Assembly: GCA_022482495.1 (NCBI GenBank)
Contig: JAKVPA010000006.1
Location: forward strand, 62,001 to 126,000
Direction: 5' to 3'
Length of the DNA stretch: 64,000 nt
From: Sphaerochaeta sp.
Lineage (GTDB): Bacteria > Spirochaetota > Spirochaetia > Sphaerochaetales > Sphaerochaetaceae
The notes beneath the pieces are model-generated. The model did no database searches, had not been told where the DNA came from, and worked only from the letters and a program-made list of their open reading frames with translations. Below are positions 56,624-64,000 of the stretch, piece after piece; positions within the stretch are counted from its first letter, which is position 1, and each line of letters starts with the position of its first letter. The position numbers and the translations under genes were made by a program.

Positions 56624-56697
56624 TCGGGCTGGGCGGATTTGAACCGCCGACCCCAAGTCCCCCAGACTTGTACGCTAAACCCCTGCGCTACAGCCCG
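56624..56697 (-). tRNA. tRNA-Pro (anticodon GGG)
   Basis: A 74-nt cloverleaf. Acceptor CGGGCTG pairs with CAGCCCG, with C1-G72 and A73 as in bacterial tRNA-Pro. The anticodon arm is CAAGT/ACTTG around CTGGGGG (GGG, G37). The T arm is GGCGG-TTCGAAT-CCGCC. CCA is not encoded. The tRNA reads CCC and CCU. Its own terminator follows. Confidence 0.96.
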
Positions 56698-56811: not shown

Positions 56812-57573
56812 ATGGGAATGATATCGAGAGATGCCCGTCGCGTTACGCTTCTGTTCGTGCTCATGGTCTGCGCTTTGGTCGCCGTTTCGGCGTATCAGTT
56901 CTCTCCGCTCGAACAAAGTTTTGCGCCGACGGGGGTCGAGAGTACAAAGACCTATACCATCACCAATGACAGTGATGATTCCATCGCCATCACCATCACC
57001 GCGTTGATCAGGGACCAAAATGAGAATGGGGAAGAGATCAATCGTCCGGCAACCAATTATTTTTCCATCCAGCCTTCCAAGGTAATCGTCAAAGCACAGT
57101 CCAGCCAGATCATCCGGGTGCAGTATCGTGGTCCGCGGACGGTGACCAATGAGCTGAGTTTCCGTATCAAGTCTGAGCAGATATCCTACAACAAAGGCAA
57201 GCAGAGTACGGACAAGGGGATGTTCAACTTCCTGTACAACTATGTCACCAGCGCGTATGTCGCTCCTGCCAAGACGATTGAGAAAGTTTCCATCACCAAC
57301 GTTCAAAAAGCAACCGGTGCGGATGGTGCGACAAATCTGGCCGTCACCGCGTCCAATGAAGGTACGGTCCATCAGCTGTTGCTCAACGCCATCCTTACGG
57401 TGACGGACAGCAAGGGGAACAGTGTGGATCTGGACACCAAGGAACAGCTGGGTAGCCTGCTTGGACTGAACATTCTTGCCAAAAAGAATGTGACCGTCCA
57501 GATTCCAATGCCCGAAGGATTGTCGCAGGCCGACGGCGTTTCGTATAAAGCGACCATCAAGTATTCCAGATAA
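56812..57573 (+). CDS. Pilus-type periplasmic chaperone
   Basis: A 253-residue protein with a signal peptide (cleavage near V-S-A, residue 27) and the two-domain PapD-like layout. The N-terminal Ig domain has Y-Q-F-S-P-L, T-Y-T-I-T-N-D-S, and F-S-I-Q-P-S-K-V-I-V-K-A-Q-S-S-Q-I-I-R-V-Q-Y near 90-111, matching the chaperone block that ends in the subunit-binding edge strand. The C-terminal domain starts after Y-V-A-P-A near 148. It would escort pilin-like subunits to the usher encoded next. No subunit gene is nearby. Confidence 0.87.
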   Translation: MGMISRDARRVTLLFVLMVCALVAVSAYQFSPLEQSFAPTGVESTKTYTITNDSDDSIAITITALIRDQNENGEEINRPATNYFSIQPSKVIVKAQSSQIIRVQYRGPRTVTNELSFRIKSEQISYNKGKQSTDKGMFNFLYNYVTSAYVAPAKTIEKVSITNVQKATGADGATNLAVTASNEGTVHQLLLNAILTVTDSKGNSVDLDTKEQLGSLLGLNILAKKNVTVQIPMPEGLSQADGVSYKATIKYSR

Positions 57574-57585
57574 CGTTGGACGCGA

Positions 57586-60500
57586 ATGAGCCATAGAGGA
57601 TATCGACAGGGGATTGCGACTGATGTATTGATCATCCTTTTGGTTTTTTCTCTCTCGGTGTTCTTTCGCACCTGTTTCCATCAACCCCTGCAACAAGAGG
57701 AACAACAAACAATCCAGCCAGCTGAACGTCAAACCTCTCAGCCGGCTGATATTGTTGTGGAAACTCCGGTGCCGGAATCATCGCCGCTACCGGTTGAGCC
57801 CGCCCAACCTGTCGTATCCCAGCCAGAACCATCTACTCCCAACGTACCAGTCGCTCCCCAACCGGAACAACCGGCCCCCCAGGTGACCGGGCCGGAACCT
57901 CCCTCCCAGCCGGAGGTAGAACCAACCCTTGTGCCGCAACCTCCCAAGACACCAAGCGTCACCATCAAAAAGATGATTCCCGATCCTCCGACACTGTTCA
58001 CGCCGACCGTCATGACGCAGGAGGATTATGACCTGTTCTACGCTCCCCAGGCGACGGAAACGGAGAGTGAGGAAGAAGATCCCTTTGCCGATTTCTTTGT
58101 TTCCGGTGAAGACGCGGTGACGTACGAGGATGGCCTGTACTATCTCTCCCTGTATATCAATGACGAATATGTCGGTGACATCGAGACGAAATTCGCCAAT
58201 CCTGAGAAACTGCTCAACGCCACCGATTTGTCTTCCTACCTGAGTTCAACGTTGAAAACGGAAGCGAATGAACGACTGTTCGCCGGGAATCCCCAGTATC
58301 TCTCCTTGGAGGATCTGCAGGCCCGTGGAATGCCCACCACGTTCGATAGTGCGGCGTTTGCCCTCCACATGACGGTGGATTACAACGACATGACAGTCCG
58401 TATCCTGTCCGTCGCTTCGGGAAGTTCCTCACGACGTGACCGGTATACGATGAGCGGGGCGACGGTGCTGGATCCTGCGAAATTCTCTTGGGTCGCTTCG
58501 ATGAGCCTGTATGGCGCATTGACTTACCCGTCGGATTTCAGCGCGCTGACCAGCCAGACGGGAACACTGTACATCAACAACGCGTTGGGATTCCTCGGAT
58601 GGGGCGTCAACTTCTCCACCAGCTTGTTCTCGACAAGTCCGTATTTCTCTCTGGGTACATGGACGGCGTTCCACGATTTCCCCGAGTCCAGCCAACGGCT
58701 TACCATCGGTTCGGTGGGAACCAACCTCAGCGCCCGCACCACCAGCGAAATGAGCATTGACGCCAACATGGGATTCACCGTGGAAAAGAGCTACAGCTAT
58801 GGCAGCGGTTCGGCGCTCCGCAACCAGTTCCAGTACTCCATTGAGGTGATCGAGCCCTCCACCGTGAAGATCTACATGAACGGCGAGGAGGAATCCAACG
58901 TAGTGTTCCAACGGCGGCTTACTGCCGGCACCTACCGCCTGAAGGACTTCGTCTTCACCCAGGGGGCGAACAAGATCCGCATCGACATCATCCCGGAATC
59001 CCGGCCGGATGACATTTCCACCTATTATGTGGACACCAGCTATGATTCCCGCCTGTTGGGGCGGGGGGATACGGTATACGGGTATGGAGCCAGCATTCCA
59101 CGGGGCAACAGCACCACGTATACGGGAAGCGCCTTCCATTTCAAGAATCCGTTGAAGGACACCTATCTCAGCTATTATCCTCAGTATTTTACCACGCGGT
59201 ACTGGCAATCCATCGGTCTGACGGATACCTTCTCACTTTCCCTTGACCTGTCCGCCACGCCAGGGGGTTTTCAGCGGTACGTTCAACGGAGTGTGGGCGA
59301 CGATGATCGGGACCACCCAGTTCCAGGGGACGACCCGTTTCAGCGAGGCGTATGACGTGCCGTTATTCAACGGGACGATAACGGAGCGGTTCAACGATAC
59401 GGTGATGAAAAACTTGGGGTCCTTGTCCCTCAGCATGGGGCTCGTGTCTCCCGCGACGGCAAGCAGTTCCTTCTCTTCCTCGGACATTCCGCTCACGCTG
59501 ACGGGTTCGTTCTCCTATTCCGGCACCGGATTGCTGACCAAACTCCGGTATTCCCTCAGTGGAACAACCACGTACATCAACGGAAACGCGTATCCCACCT
59601 GGAGTATCAGCGGAACCACCGGATTCCGCCTGTTCAAGGGGCTTGCCATCTCCGCGGCGCTGACGGTCAGCGCGTCGGACAGCGACCAGCCATGGAACCC
59701 TGAAGTGACGGCGACGATCAGCGGCGGGTATTCCTTCTCGTCCAAAGTGAGTTCTTCCGCTTCCACGACGTATACGACAAACAGTGAAACGCTTACTTCG
59801 GTGGGGCTCTCGTATCGTCCTACGGATACGGACAGCATTTCCCTTTCCATGTCTGGATTCCGGCTGGACAAACCGCTGAACCATTCCTTGTACGGCGTGT
59901 GGTCCCATACAGGCAAGTTCTCCTCCTTGACGTTCCGCCAGCAGGCGTCCAGTTCGTACCAGACATTGACGACAAGCGCCACGTTGTCCACCGCCATCGC
60001 GTTCGCCGACGGGGTGTTCGGCATGGCGCGTTCCGTTTCAAACAATTTCCTGTTGATCAAGCCGGTAGGGGAGTTGCGGCACAGTCAGATTTCCGTAGCT
60101 CGGAGCATGGACAACTCGCCGCAGGTGGTGCCTTCCTATCTGGGAGCCGGGCTGTTCACCAACATCACTCCGTATCAGGAAAACAACGTAGTCGTCTACA
60201 GTGGCGGTTCGGATGCGTATTCCACCAGCACCTCGTTCATGTACCAGTTTACCCCCAGCGGCAGACAGGCGTATGTCGCCCGGATTGATCTTCCTCCAAC
60301 CTTTACCGTAACCGGGGTGATCACCCATGCCGATGGCACGGTGTACGACCAGTATTCCTCCCCGATCTATCGGGTGACCAAAGGAGAGAATGGGGAAGAC
60401 GTCCTGGAGATCGACAATGACTTCTACCTGTTCACCGATCAGGAAGGCCGGTTCGTCATCAACTCGATGCCTTCCGGTGAGTACAGCTTTGATCTGCAGG

Positions 60501-60709
60501 TCAACGACAGCACCTGGTATGCCGTCCGGTTCACCATTCCGGAAATGTCTGACAAGAAGCTTCGTGCCATCGAATACCGGACGATCAGCGATGCTGGTCC
60601 GTATGATGCCGAAGGCCTTCCGGATTATGATCAGACCATCACCTTGGAAGTGGAAAAACAGGAGACGGAGGAAGAGCTGTACTCCATGCTGTTCCCCGTA
60701 ATGGAGTAA
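57586..60709 (+). pseudogene. Usher-like outer-membrane protein with anchored, proline-rich N-terminus; one frameshift
   Basis: Two frames make one 1040-residue protein if a G is removed from GGGGG at 59263-59267 (codon about 560), giving A-T-P-G-V-F-S-G-T-F. Residues 14-27 are a single hydrophobic segment without an AxA cleavage site. Residues about 60-140 are proline-rich (P-x-P and P-E-P, TonB-like). Then an usher N-terminal domain (Y-L-S-L-Y-I-N-D-E-Y-V-G near 182), a plug-like V-K-I-Y-M-N-G-E-E and G-T-Y-R-L-K-D-F-V-F, and a long beta-rich barrel follow. The end is a carboxypeptidase-regulatory-like domain. Ushers thread chaperone-bound subunits through the outer membrane. The frameshift may be a sequencing error. 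Confidence 0.8.
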
Positions 60710-60794: not shown

Positions 60795-61118
60795 ATGCGT
60801 AGTGACATCATCGATGAAATCCTCAGCGTGGAAGACCGCGCCAGCCAAATCGTCAAAGAGGCACAGGACGAAGGGCGGACAAAGGTGCTTGAGGCACAGA
60901 CGAAAGCTGCCCAGGATGTGCATGATGCTGTCTCGAAGCGACGATTGGAACACCAGAAGGAACTGGAGCAGGCTGAGGCGGATAGTGCCGTCCAGTTGGA
61001 TAACTACCAGGCTTCCTTGGATGTCTCCAGCACGTTGGTTCCCGAGGCGATCGACCAGATCGCGGATAAAATCGTCATGATGGTTTCCAAAACGACTTTG
61101 TTTGGAGGACAGGCGTAG
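60795..61118 (+). CDS. A/V-type ATPase peripheral-stalk subunit (G/H-like)
   Basis: A 107-residue, largely coiled-coil protein. The N-terminal part (I-L-S-V-E-D-R-A-S-Q-I-V-K-E-A near residues 9-23) is the G/H stalk pattern, with heptads running to about 75 and a short C-terminal helical end. It would form half of the stalk with subunit E. First gene of the operon; its TAG is followed directly by the ATG of subunit C. Confidence 0.82.
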   Translation: MRSDIIDEILSVEDRASQIVKEAQDEGRTKVLEAQTKAAQDVHDAVSKRRLEHQKELEQAEADSAVQLDNYQASLDVSSTLVPEAIDQIADKIVMMVSKTTLFGGQA

Positions 61119-62216
61119 ATGGACGCTGTATCGAGATACGGGTTCATCAATGCCAAACTCAGGGCAAGAATTGGTCTGATGCGTCAGTCCAGGCTTACCG
61201 ATGACATGTTGAAGGCTTCCTCGTTGGTGGATGCCGTCGCGTTGCTTCGGGAAACCGGGTATGCAGCGGTCGCCAAGGCGTATGATGAGACCGGGGATTT
61301 GCAGGCGATGGAATTCGTTCTCTTGGAGGGCGAGATCGCCAGTTACCAGGAAGTGGAGCGCTATCTGGATGACAAACCGGCAAAGTTTGTCAAGGAACTC
61401 CTAGGAAAAATCGAAGAAGACAACCTGAAGAATGCCATCCGGCTTTGGTACAGCTCGGTGGTGCGGATGCACTCCATCCGTTATCGCAGTGAATATCTGT
61501 ATCGGAACCAAATCGTCAATGATATCAACTGGGCGGGTATCGTCAACGCCACTGACTGGAAAGGCGTGGTGGAGGGGGTCAAGGGTACTCCGTATGAAAA
61601 GGTGCTCTCCACCTTCACCCAGGAAATGATCCAGAAGAACGGATTGTTCGATCTGGAGACGGCCATCGACAAGGATTGGTATGCCGATCTGATGGAAAGC
61701 GTCAAACTGCTTTCCGCGTCTGACCAGGAAGTGGCCCGGAAGATTTTCTACGCGGATTTTGATTTGAAGAACCTGCTCAATTTGATTCGGTTCGGATGGT
61801 ATCACGAGTTGGAGAAGGATCGTTTGGCCTCCACGCTGTTCCCCTGGGGAAGCCTGTATGGGAGCAAGGAAGTGGCTGCGTACCTGGCTGCCCCGAAGGA
61901 CAACAGGGACCCGATGCCCATCGTCAAGCGGTTCTATCCCAATCTGGTGCCGGAAATTCAGGATATTATCGGGAAAAACAAGGATGGAGAGCATTCCGAG
62001 CAGCTCATGGCGCAGGAGACGTTGCGTCTTGAGCAGTATCTGCAGACGGAACGCGGAGATGCCTATCACCGCATTCTTTCGCAGGATCCATTCTCCATTG
62101 GGATCGCGTTGTCGTACTTTTTCCTGTACCGCAGCGTTGATTCGCTGATCAGGGCGATCCTCAATGGAAAATATTACGGGTATACAGACCAGCAAATCAG
62201 GGGGGAGGTAGGATGA
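61119..62216 (+). CDS. A/V-type ATPase subunit C (central-axis socket)
   Basis: A 365-residue helical protein like NtpC/AtpC of Enterococcus and Thermus. It has Y-G-F-I-N-A-K-L-R-A-R near residues 7-17, repeated funnel units, F-D-L-K-N-L-L-N-L-I-R near 217-227 and the late D-P-F-S-I-G-I-A-L-S-Y-F near 326-337, which is the conserved end of this family. It links the rotor axle to the membrane ring. ATGA overlap with subunit I. Confidence 0.93.
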   Translation: MDAVSRYGFINAKLRARIGLMRQSRLTDDMLKASSLVDAVALLRETGYAAVAKAYDETGDLQAMEFVLLEGEIASYQEVERYLDDKPAKFVKELLGKIEEDNLKNAIRLWYSSVVRMHSIRYRSEYLYRNQIVNDINWAGIVNATDWKGVVEGVKGTPYEKVLSTFTQEMIQKNGLFDLETAIDKDWYADLMESVKLLSASDQEVARKIFYADFDLKNLLNLIRFGWYHELEKDRLASTLFPWGSLYGSKEVAAYLAAPKDNRDPMPIVKRFYPNLVPEIQDIIGKNKDGEHSEQLMAQETLRLEQYLQTERGDAYHRILSQDPFSIGIALSYFFLYRSVDSLIRAILNGKYYGYTDQQIRGEVG

Positions 62217-64000
62217 ATCTATTCACCAGGCCTATGAAACTGCTCACCGCCGTTGTTCTGGAACAGAAGAGCGACGCCGTGGTAAAGGCATTGTTGGAAG
62301 AGGGGGTGATGGACTTTGTCCACATCGACAAGCTTGATCCCAAGCAGATGGAGAAACTCAGCACCAGGCCGGCTTCGGTGAACCGGACGGCGCTGGAGGA
62401 TATGCGCCATCGGATCGAAGCGATGCTTCGCCAAGGACAATTGGGACTGCCTTCCAATGAATCGCTCCATGTCAAGGACGTGGAAAAACCGGATCTTGAC
62501 GGATATCGCGAGTTGCTGGATGACATCACCAAACAGTTGTCCACCTTGAAGGATGAACAACGGCATGCCAACCAGACCCTGTTGGGGCTGGGCGAGATGA
62601 AACGGTACATCCAGGAACAGAAGTACATTTACCTTGACCTTCGTGTCGGGCGTCCCACCCATGGGACGATGCCGGATCTTTCCTCAAAGCTTTCCTCATT
62701 TGGCGCAGTGATCGCCCAATCCAAAGAAAGCACGGAAAACTGGATTTCGTTGACGATGCGCCGTGATTCAGCGCAGGTGACGCCACTGTTGGACAAATTC
62801 GGTTGGACGGAGACGAGTAATCCTGAACTGCAGAAAACCGCCTTGGTGGACATCAGCTCGGAGATTGACCGGAAGATGGAAGAGGCGGACAAAGCCCGCA
62901 AGGGGATTGAGACGCAGGTGAACGCCATCATCAAGGACAAGCAGGCTGATCTGGACAAAGCGTGGTGCAACCTTCGGTTGAACGAACTGTGCGACCAGAT
63001 CCGCTCGTATTTCTCCTATACCCGGAACACGACGCTGTTCTCCGGATGGGTGCCCGCCGACAAGAGCGAGGAAGTCTCCAAGGCGATCTACTCCTCCAGT
63101 GACGGCCAGTGTGTCATCGAATGGACCAAAGCAGACGCCATGCCGCGCAACGAAGTGCCGGTTGCCGTCTCTTCTCCCAAGGCGATGATGCCGTTCGCCA
63201 AGATGGTCAGCAATTACGGGACGCCGGAGTACGGTTCGGTGAACCCGACGCCGTTCGTCATGGTCGCATACCTGGCCATGTTCGCCTTGATGTTCGCCGA
63301 TGTCGGCCAGGGATTCGTCCTTTTGGTGTTCGGTCTGTTGATGATGCTTTCCTACAAAAAGAACCCGATGAAGAAAGACGGGATGATCAGCAGGAACATC
63401 TCCCAGCTTCTGGTGTATCTGGGTGGGGCGTCCATCATTGGTGGCGCGCTGTTCGGTTCTTACTTTGGATTTACCTGGCTTCCGGCGTTGTGGTTCAACT
63501 ATGATGCGGCGGTCAATGGAGACCCGACGGGATCGTCCATCAAGGATGTGTACGGTATTTTGGGCATGACCATCAAGTTTGGTATCGCCGTCATCTATAC
63601 CGGACTGTTCATCAACTGGACAAACCTGGCGCGAAAGAAAGCGTGGCTGACGTTGTTCCTGGACAAGAACGGAGTGGTTGGTGGGGTGCTGTTCGGCACC
63701 GGCCTGTACCTGGCGTACGGGTTTGCCGGAAACGGCTACAAGAGTTTCCCCAACGCGCCGTGGGCCAGCCCGGTGATCACCACTTGTCTGATTCTGATTC
63801 TGGTGCGCGGTTTCCTGGAATACGCCCTTTCCGTCAAGGAAGGCGGCGCGAAGAAGGGTGGAGGCCAGGTCGTGCTGGATTCGGTCATGGCGTGGCTGGT
63901 CGACGTGCTTGAAATTTTCTGCGGGTACATGTCCAATACGTTGTCCTTCATGCGTGTGGCCGGCCTCGGCATCGCGCATGTCTGCCTGATGATCAGCTTC
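62213..64000 (+). CDS. A/V-type ATPase subunit I, C-terminus cut by window edge
   Basis: The first 596 residues of the membrane stator subunit. The N-terminal 330 residues are cytoplasmic with coiled coil (Y-R-E-L-L-D-D-I-T-K-Q-L). Membrane helices start near 345 (F-V-M-V-A-Y-L-A-M-F-A-L-M-F-A-D-V-G-Q-G-F). Near the edge, N-T-L-S-F-M-R-V-A-G-L-G-I-A-H carries the arginine expected to face the ion-binding ring. A Q stands where most families have H in M-F-x-D-V-G-H-G. The ion (H+ or Na+) cannot be told without subunit K, which must lie beyond 64000. Confidence 0.94.
   Translation, partial: MNLFTRPMKLLTAVVLEQKSDAVVKALLEEGVMDFVHIDKLDPKQMEKLSTRPASVNRTALEDMRHRIEAMLRQGQLGLPSNESLHVKDVEKPDLDGYRELLDDITKQLSTLKDEQRHANQTLLGLGEMKRYIQEQKYIYLDLRVGRPTHGTMPDLSSKLSSFGAVIAQSKESTENWISLTMRRDSAQVTPLLDKFGWTETSNPELQKTALVDISSEIDRKMEEADKARKGIETQVNAIIKDKQADLDKAWCNLRLNELCDQIRSYFSYTRNTTLFSGWVPADKSEEVSKAIYSSSDGQCVIEWTKADAMPRNEVPVAVSSPKAMMPFAKMVSNYGTPEYGSVNPTPFVMVAYLAMFALMFADVGQGFVLLVFGLLMMLSYKKNPMKKDGMISRNISQLLVYLGGASIIGGALFGSYFGFTWLPALWFNYDAAVNGDPTGSSIKDVYGILGMTIKFGIAVIYTGLFINWTNLARKKAWLTLFLDKNGVVGGVLFGTGLYLAYGFAGNGYKSFPNAPWASPVITTCLILILVRGFLEYALSVKEGGAKKGGGQVVLDSVMAWLVDVLEIFCGYMSNTLSFMRVAGLGIAHVCLMISF

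Follow-up and report, generated by a model that had tools for sequence, protein, structure and literature searches.

A predicted membrane-anchored usher with a long N-terminal linker in the Sphaerochaetaceae, a probable new form of the archaic chaperone-usher pathway

By the textbook account, ushers are outer-membrane proteins that function free of contact with the inner membrane, and their classical representatives, FimD and PapC, have cleaved signals and nothing comparable to the linker described below. The present locus raises the question of whether an usher can also be held in the inner membrane by its own N-terminus, an arrangement that, to our knowledge, is not seen in any other pilus assembly machine. 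The window, by which we mean the whole stretch of 64,000 nucleotides that was analysed (G000:C6:62001-126000), belongs to a spirochaete genome of 2.25 Mb in 14 contigs, and an original prediction made from its letters had proposed an orphan chaperone-usher pair whose usher is anchored in the manner of TonB. We report a computational analysis of this pair, of its relatives and of its candidate substrates.

The features of the locus are collected in Table 1. A PapD-type chaperone gene is followed, after a gap of 12 bases, by the usher, whose predicted extent of 57586-60709 is correct, and then by a V-type ATPase operon. As had been claimed, the chaperone is the usher's sole pathway partner in the window and no pilin-like gene accompanies the pair, the C-terminal pilin pattern occurring in none of the 58 called genes; the single pilin-chaperone-usher-adhesin operon of archaic (sigma) systems is absent here. 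We gathered 48 named relative loci via the chaperone, from Sphaerochaeta, Pleomorphochaeta and other Sphaerochaetaceae or Spirochaetales records, and among the genes of these loci the same pilin pattern was found in 2 of 541, one of them a chaperone. An usher reading frame is present at 47 of the 48; the remaining locus, L073, stops shortly past the chaperone. Across whole genomes, the usher gene occurs in 26 of 37 Sphaerochaetaceae and in 27 of 61 in all, which is more than chance. A tRNA-Pro gene (ggg; 56624-56697, minus strand) lies just upstream of the chaperone in the window, and the V-type ATPase operon (60795-64000) stands directly downstream of the usher across many genera of the family; the AC39 subunit or subunit I was seen at 28 of the 48 named loci and 16 of 24 other loci, some of which are too short to tell.

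Table 1. Features of the chaperone-usher locus, in window coordinates
Feature	Position	Strand	Basis or remark
Periplasmic pilus chaperone (PapD type), own ordinary signal peptide (ends VSA, mature start YQFSPLEQ)	56812..57573	+	PF00345, E 1.5e-5, over cut-off
Usher, first ORF: putative anchor, linker, N-terminal domain, barrel start, plug	57586..59355	+	Frame 1; last ~28 codons out of frame
Hydrophobic segment, residues 8-32, proposed inner-membrane anchor	57607..57681	+	Sequence; continuous helix 4-32 in homologue model
Pro/Asp/Glu-rich linker, about residues 33-166	57682..58083	+	Sequence; low pLDDT in homologue model
Aromatic motif FADFFV at linker end, proposed chaperone-binding N-tail	58084..58101	+	Family pattern
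Usher, second ORF: remaining barrel and C-terminal domain	59243..60709	+	Frame 2
Frame break (+1) at G5T4 run	59264..59271	+	Alignment to intact homologue; long open frames in relatives
V-type ATPase G/E-like subunit, conserved downstream neighbour	60795..61118	+	PF03179, E 2.1e-5, below cut-off; synteny; not counted as a component
V-type ATPase AC39 subunit, conserved downstream neighbour	61119..62216	+	PF01992, E 3.9e-43; not counted as a component

The usher is read in two open reading frames, which alignment to an intact homologue (L029) reveals to be the two halves of one gene: the homologue follows frame 1 up to 59271 and frame 2 from 59264. Leaving truncated contigs aside, the family homologues have open frames of approximately 975-1333 aa. 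The adhesin gene of the same genome, discussed below, is read in two frames and so is broken once, while its BamA gene (L266, G000:C1:95500-99500) is read in three frames and so is broken twice. BamA is essential in other bacteria; an indel-prone assembly is therefore the simplest reading, and since the relatives are intact and BamA and the adhesin are broken too, the break in the usher probably arose as an indel during sequencing or assembly. The breaks in BamA and the adhesin also make phase variation or programmed frameshifting at this site the less likely reading.

The identity of the protein could not be read from standard profiles. The usher family PF00577 gave no match in the window's genome and matched only 4 of the 25 members of our usher alignment (E up to 0.1, best 6.3e-6); the two usher halves found nothing useful in Pfam or NCBIfam; and a search for related loci with the C-terminal half as query gave no match. 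A profile built from the 25 ushers found no usher among PDB sequences, so that a comparison of folds was needed. An AlphaFold model was made of the homologue L058 (1110 aa, from the locus of L029, with 48-53% identity to the window's usher halves) from an alignment of 38 rows, with a mean pLDDT of 74.4 and a pTM of 0.58. It is laid out as a helix (residues 4-32), a disordered region (33-199, with pLDDT below 50 over 33-165 and 170-199), an N-terminal domain (NTD) from residue 204, and then the barrel, plug and C-terminal domain; by our own count from the DSSP line, 6 strands precede the plug and 18 follow it, giving 24. All of the top 18 Foldseek matches are FimD or PapC (best E 3e-31, target TM up to 0.69), and in VIA 15 usher entries score Z 18.9-22.2 against 15.6 for the next fold, the rows beneath the ushers being generic barrels (LptD, TonB-dependent receptors, porins). 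The model shares with FimD and PapC the same succession of NTD, plug-gated barrel and C-terminal domain, but only 10-15% identity over the aligned parts. By its predicted fold, then, the window's protein is an usher, as had been proposed.

The chaperone is more readily recognised. Its own AlphaFold model (pLDDT 85.5) finds CfaA, CsuC and EcpB, which are non-classical chaperones, as best Foldseek matches, and is close to CsuC (6fqa) of the archaic CsuC/CsuD/CsuE system of Acinetobacter baumannii. The locus has two of the marks of a chaperone-usher pathway, namely a PapD-type periplasmic chaperone, over the cut-off for PF00345 and of the right fold, beside an usher with an NTD, a plug-gated 24-strand barrel and a C-terminal domain, as judged from the homologue model and the fold search.

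What sets this usher apart is its N-terminus. The original prediction described one hydrophobic segment and a proline-rich linker, and both are there, although the linker measures about 135 residues (24% Pro, 16% Asp/Glu) and not the 80 or so estimated. We compared 67 distinct Sphaerochaetaceae usher N-termini, the window's included, and every one has the putative anchor and the linker; when the linker filter is left out, the sole linker-less row of 67 is L053, an outgroup row. A single hydrophobic segment is present in 53 of the 67, with linkers of 96-388 residues (median 138, never below 96) composed of 17% Pro, 22% Asp/Glu and 4% Lys/Arg; L064 was flagged with two segments and judged on reading to have one, and the remaining 13 have between two and seven. 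The latter ushers, in which a membrane domain of 2-7 segments precedes the linker, are those of L047, L048, L052, L182, L187, L188 and L190-L196. The linker ends in an aromatic motif (for example WADFYV), found as a pattern in 63 of the 67 and as close variants in the other four, and in none of 20 outgroup ushers. Since classical ushers contact the chaperone largely through the N-terminal tail of their NTD (PMC9452303), we propose by analogy that this motif is a chaperone-binding N-tail. A second motif, approximately P-x-x-F-x-P-x-V-x-T-Q-E-D-Y-x-L-F, recurs in the otherwise variable linker in several genera (L029, L031, L037, L056 and the window, where it reads PPTLFTPTVMTQEDYDLFY).

The outgroup, 20 loci from other spirochaete families, presents a different picture. 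An usher is found at all 20, and in 19 of them, judged by eye, an ordinary signal peptide stands beside the N-terminal domain (L216 being unclear); the linker amounts to 0-15 residues in 17 of 18 rows, and in L199 and L204 the signal is followed by an additional region low in proline. The chaperone adjoins the usher at 19 loci, the exception (L202) being one in which the usher starts 62 bases from the stretch end. At many of these loci the genes form a pilin-chaperone-usher-adhesin operon, with a pilin of 155-205 aa upstream and an adhesin of 303-343 aa downstream, and the SCPU domain (PF05229) exceeds the cut-off in 6 of the 9 pilins and adhesins scanned. The outgroup spirochaetes carry the SCPU pilins and the two-domain, CsuE-like tip adhesin by which archaic systems are recognised. 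In a tree of 55 usher cores, the 34 anchored ushers are divided from the 21 others by a single branch (SH-aLRT 100), with the multi-segment ushers grouped in one nested clade; the tree was made by a quick method, is rooted at its midpoint and has long outgroup branches.

Whether the segment is an anchor or a signal peptide is the crux of the matter. It resembles an anchor in the length of its uncharged run (median 23, compared with 17 in outgroup ushers), in the continuous helix of the model, in its want of a lipobox and in the existence of multi-segment versions. The competing explanation takes the segment for a signal peptide that is atypical yet still cleaved, leaving the linker as a free, disordered tail by which an otherwise normal archaic usher catches chaperone-subunit complexes. 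This has the merit of needing no new membrane topology, and the conserved aromatic N-tail sits at the linker's end. A loose small-x-small cleavage pattern also occurs in 55 of the 67 family rows, although it is present in 18 of 18 outgroup rows as well and does not discriminate; the strict A-x-A pattern occurs in 5 of 67 and 1 of 18, respectively, and in Sphaerochaeta ushers (e.g. L031) an LSA inside the segment is a possible cleavage site. One cleavage near the N-terminus does not, however, explain the 13 ushers with 2-7 segments, and the longer uncharged run counts against it, as do the ordinary, Ala-ending signal peptides of the chaperones and BamA of the same genomes. For BamA these were recognised by eye in 17 of 17 Sphaerochaetaceae (16 family genomes and the window's own), so that, as far as one control shows, the anchor is specific to the usher and no general trait of the lineage. 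In 40 of 67 N-termini the segment has a Cys close to its end, but a canonical lipobox is found in only one, a multi-segment row, and lipoprotein anchoring was set aside for this reason. We consider the cleaved signal peptide unlikely and infer instead that the anchor stays uncleaved, with the segment inserted in the inner membrane while the barrel would sit in the outer membrane. That anchor and linker could together span the periplasm, as was first suggested, is borne out in so far as the N-terminus looks like an anchor, the linker is long enough and both recur in the homologues. The prediction had named two findings that would count against it, want of a barrel or plug, and a confidently cleaved segment together with a linker absent from homologues; the model predicts both barrel and plug, and the homologues have the linker.

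The description 'orphan' holds for the locus only, as elsewhere in the same genome there are genes for a two-domain adhesin resembling CsuE and, in tandem, for two pilin-like proteins. SCPU matches in this genome are below the cut-off (E 0.0045 and 0.006), and the weaker of them led to G000:C3, where two reading frames are the halves of the frame-broken adhesin gene mentioned above. Our family adhesin profile A6 matches both halves, and its only match in the PDB is CsuE (6fjy_B, E 0.019). Relatives of this adhesin are secreted proteins of 355-423 aa, with several per genome in G024, G004 and G005. Such CsuE-like two-domain secreted proteins are clustered at L137 (4570-9358) and L138 (4113-9847), some on opposite strands, which suggests that one usher serves a diverse set of adhesins. 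The pilin-like proteins, also secreted, are encoded at C2:187028-187666 (ending GQYLSSVTMSLTYKD) and C2:187669-188196 (ending GEYTGSITVNMSTSN); they are weak by Pfam, with a pilin profile match at E 3.3e-4. As pointers to donor-strand exchange, the subunit candidates show a C-terminal G-x-Y strand pattern together with profile likeness.

To compare genomes, a pilin match was called full-length-like at an E of at most 1e-6 over 100 of the 176 positions. Among the family genomes, 18 of the 26 with an usher and 0 of the 11 without one have such a match (12 of 20 and 0 of 11 without the genomes used for model building), in raw counts that ignore kinship and genome size, and the co-occurrence is confounded by genome reduction; eight of the 26, the window's genome among them, have no match at this strict level. 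On the strength of fold likeness and this co-occurrence, the trans-encoded adhesin and pilin-like proteins would use the window's usher. In one relative (G008, L051) a pilin-like gene is kept just upstream of the chaperone, an arrangement that is a possible intermediate. Several secreted proteins, pilin-like ones included, are encoded directly downstream of the multi-segment ushers of L047, L048 and L052; the idea that all secreted proteins of these operons are pilins was rejected, because the matches of g3 and A4 to the other subunit profiles fall largely within the signal peptide.

A further explanation starts from the envelope. The anchored usher might serve chiefly to tie the outer membrane mechanically to the inner one, in place of OmpA/Pal-type tethers between outer membrane and peptidoglycan, pilus assembly being secondary or lost. 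The OmpA domain (PF00691) is indeed found in 0 of 37 Sphaerochaetaceae (G000-G036) as against 20 of 24 other genomes of the class (G037-G060), the transpeptidase PF00905 is present as one copy in 22 and absent in 15 of the 37 as against 1-5 copies in all 24 others, and the linkers of one-segment ushers never fall short of the 96 residues given above. Yet the chaperone is retained and conserved, subunit candidates co-occur with the usher, and the operons of L047, L048 and L052 join multi-segment ushers to secreted pilin-like genes. The family genomes that have no usher (11 of 37) also have no OmpA domain, and 10 of the 11 have no transpeptidase either, which is the wrong direction for a substitute. 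As the absence of the usher coincides with that of the transpeptidase in the family, a role in holding the envelope ranks below pilus assembly; an outer-membrane protein with such a tie could also help to hold the envelope together, but that this is its main function we regard as very improbable.

The likely explanation, taken as a whole, is that of an archaic-type pilus assembly platform whose usher is tethered to the inner membrane and whose substrates are encoded in trans, remodelled in the ancestor of the Sphaerochaetaceae from an archaic (sigma, Csu-like) platform. The folds of usher and chaperone, the conservation of anchor and linker, the single branch of the tree and the trans-encoded substrate candidates in the window's genome are computed results. 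In the proposed scheme, that ancestor would have exchanged the usher's cleavable signal peptide for a transmembrane anchor that is retained, and would have gained, ahead of the N-terminal domain, a flexible linker of some 100-390 residues that ends in the aromatic N-tail. A single chain, embedded by its barrel in the outer membrane and by its anchor in the inner one, would bridge the periplasm. The chaperone would bring pilin-like and CsuE-like two-domain subunits, made from other loci, to the N-tail and N-terminal domain, and the subunits would then, as with other ushers, be linked by donor-strand exchange and leave through the plug-gated barrel.

Known systems resemble parts of this scheme. 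With the archaic Csu system it shares, besides the CsuC-like chaperone, the CsuE match of the adhesin profile and the SCPU-domain pilins and two-domain adhesins of the outgroup operons; it differs in the apparent membrane anchor and long linker in place of a cleaved signal, and in subunit genes at separate loci. TonB has an N-terminal inner-membrane helix and a Pro-rich linker that spans the periplasm. The helix and linker of the anchored usher fit this build by sequence and model, but the likeness first proposed is one of build only: there is no TonB C-terminal domain, and the chain ends in an outer-membrane barrel. CupB3 of Pseudomonas aeruginosa, the P-usher, carries an extra domain that serves TpsA secretion and is not a membrane anchor. 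The Sphaerochaetaceae protein is likewise an usher with an extra part, in this case a proposed membrane anchor; the P-usher, an usher carrying an extra domain, is the subject of a paper cited in PMC4793230. Archaic chaperone-usher systems are described in PMC4654587 for proteobacteria, Cyanobacteria and Deinococcus-Thermus. In a literature search that left most subscription papers outside, no paper combining Sphaerochaeta with an usher was found, the papers on chaperone-usher systems and spirochaetes were not about spirochaete ushers, judged by title and the start of the abstract, and queries for anchored ushers or uncleaved barrel proteins returned unrelated papers at most. That such a system is unusual in a spirochaete agrees with this literature, but not with the usher cores that we find in 82 of the 297 genomes of the class.

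The usher of the Sphaerochaetaceae is probably a new form of the archaic chaperone-usher pathway, its N-terminal putative anchor and linker conserved throughout the family. A family-wide usher tethered to the inner membrane, if true, would break the rule that ushers work without contact with that membrane, would be a rare case of one polypeptide joining both membranes and would offer a natural experiment on coupling pilus assembly to the inner membrane, or loading it against that membrane. We suggest tentatively, and at rather less than even confidence, that a single chain of inner-membrane anchor, linker and 24-strand outer-membrane barrel spans both membranes of these diderms, that in one clade the domain of 2-7 segments may sense the state of the inner membrane or couple it to pilus assembly, and that the machine may also anchor adhesins mechanically to the inner membrane in a lineage with no OmpA-type tethers and few or no transpeptidases. 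The Sphaerochaetaceae, in whose surveyed genomes such tethers are absent, would with a tethered usher also gain a surface adhesion system that current annotation misses: no Pfam family matches the usher of the window, and the substrates are encoded elsewhere.
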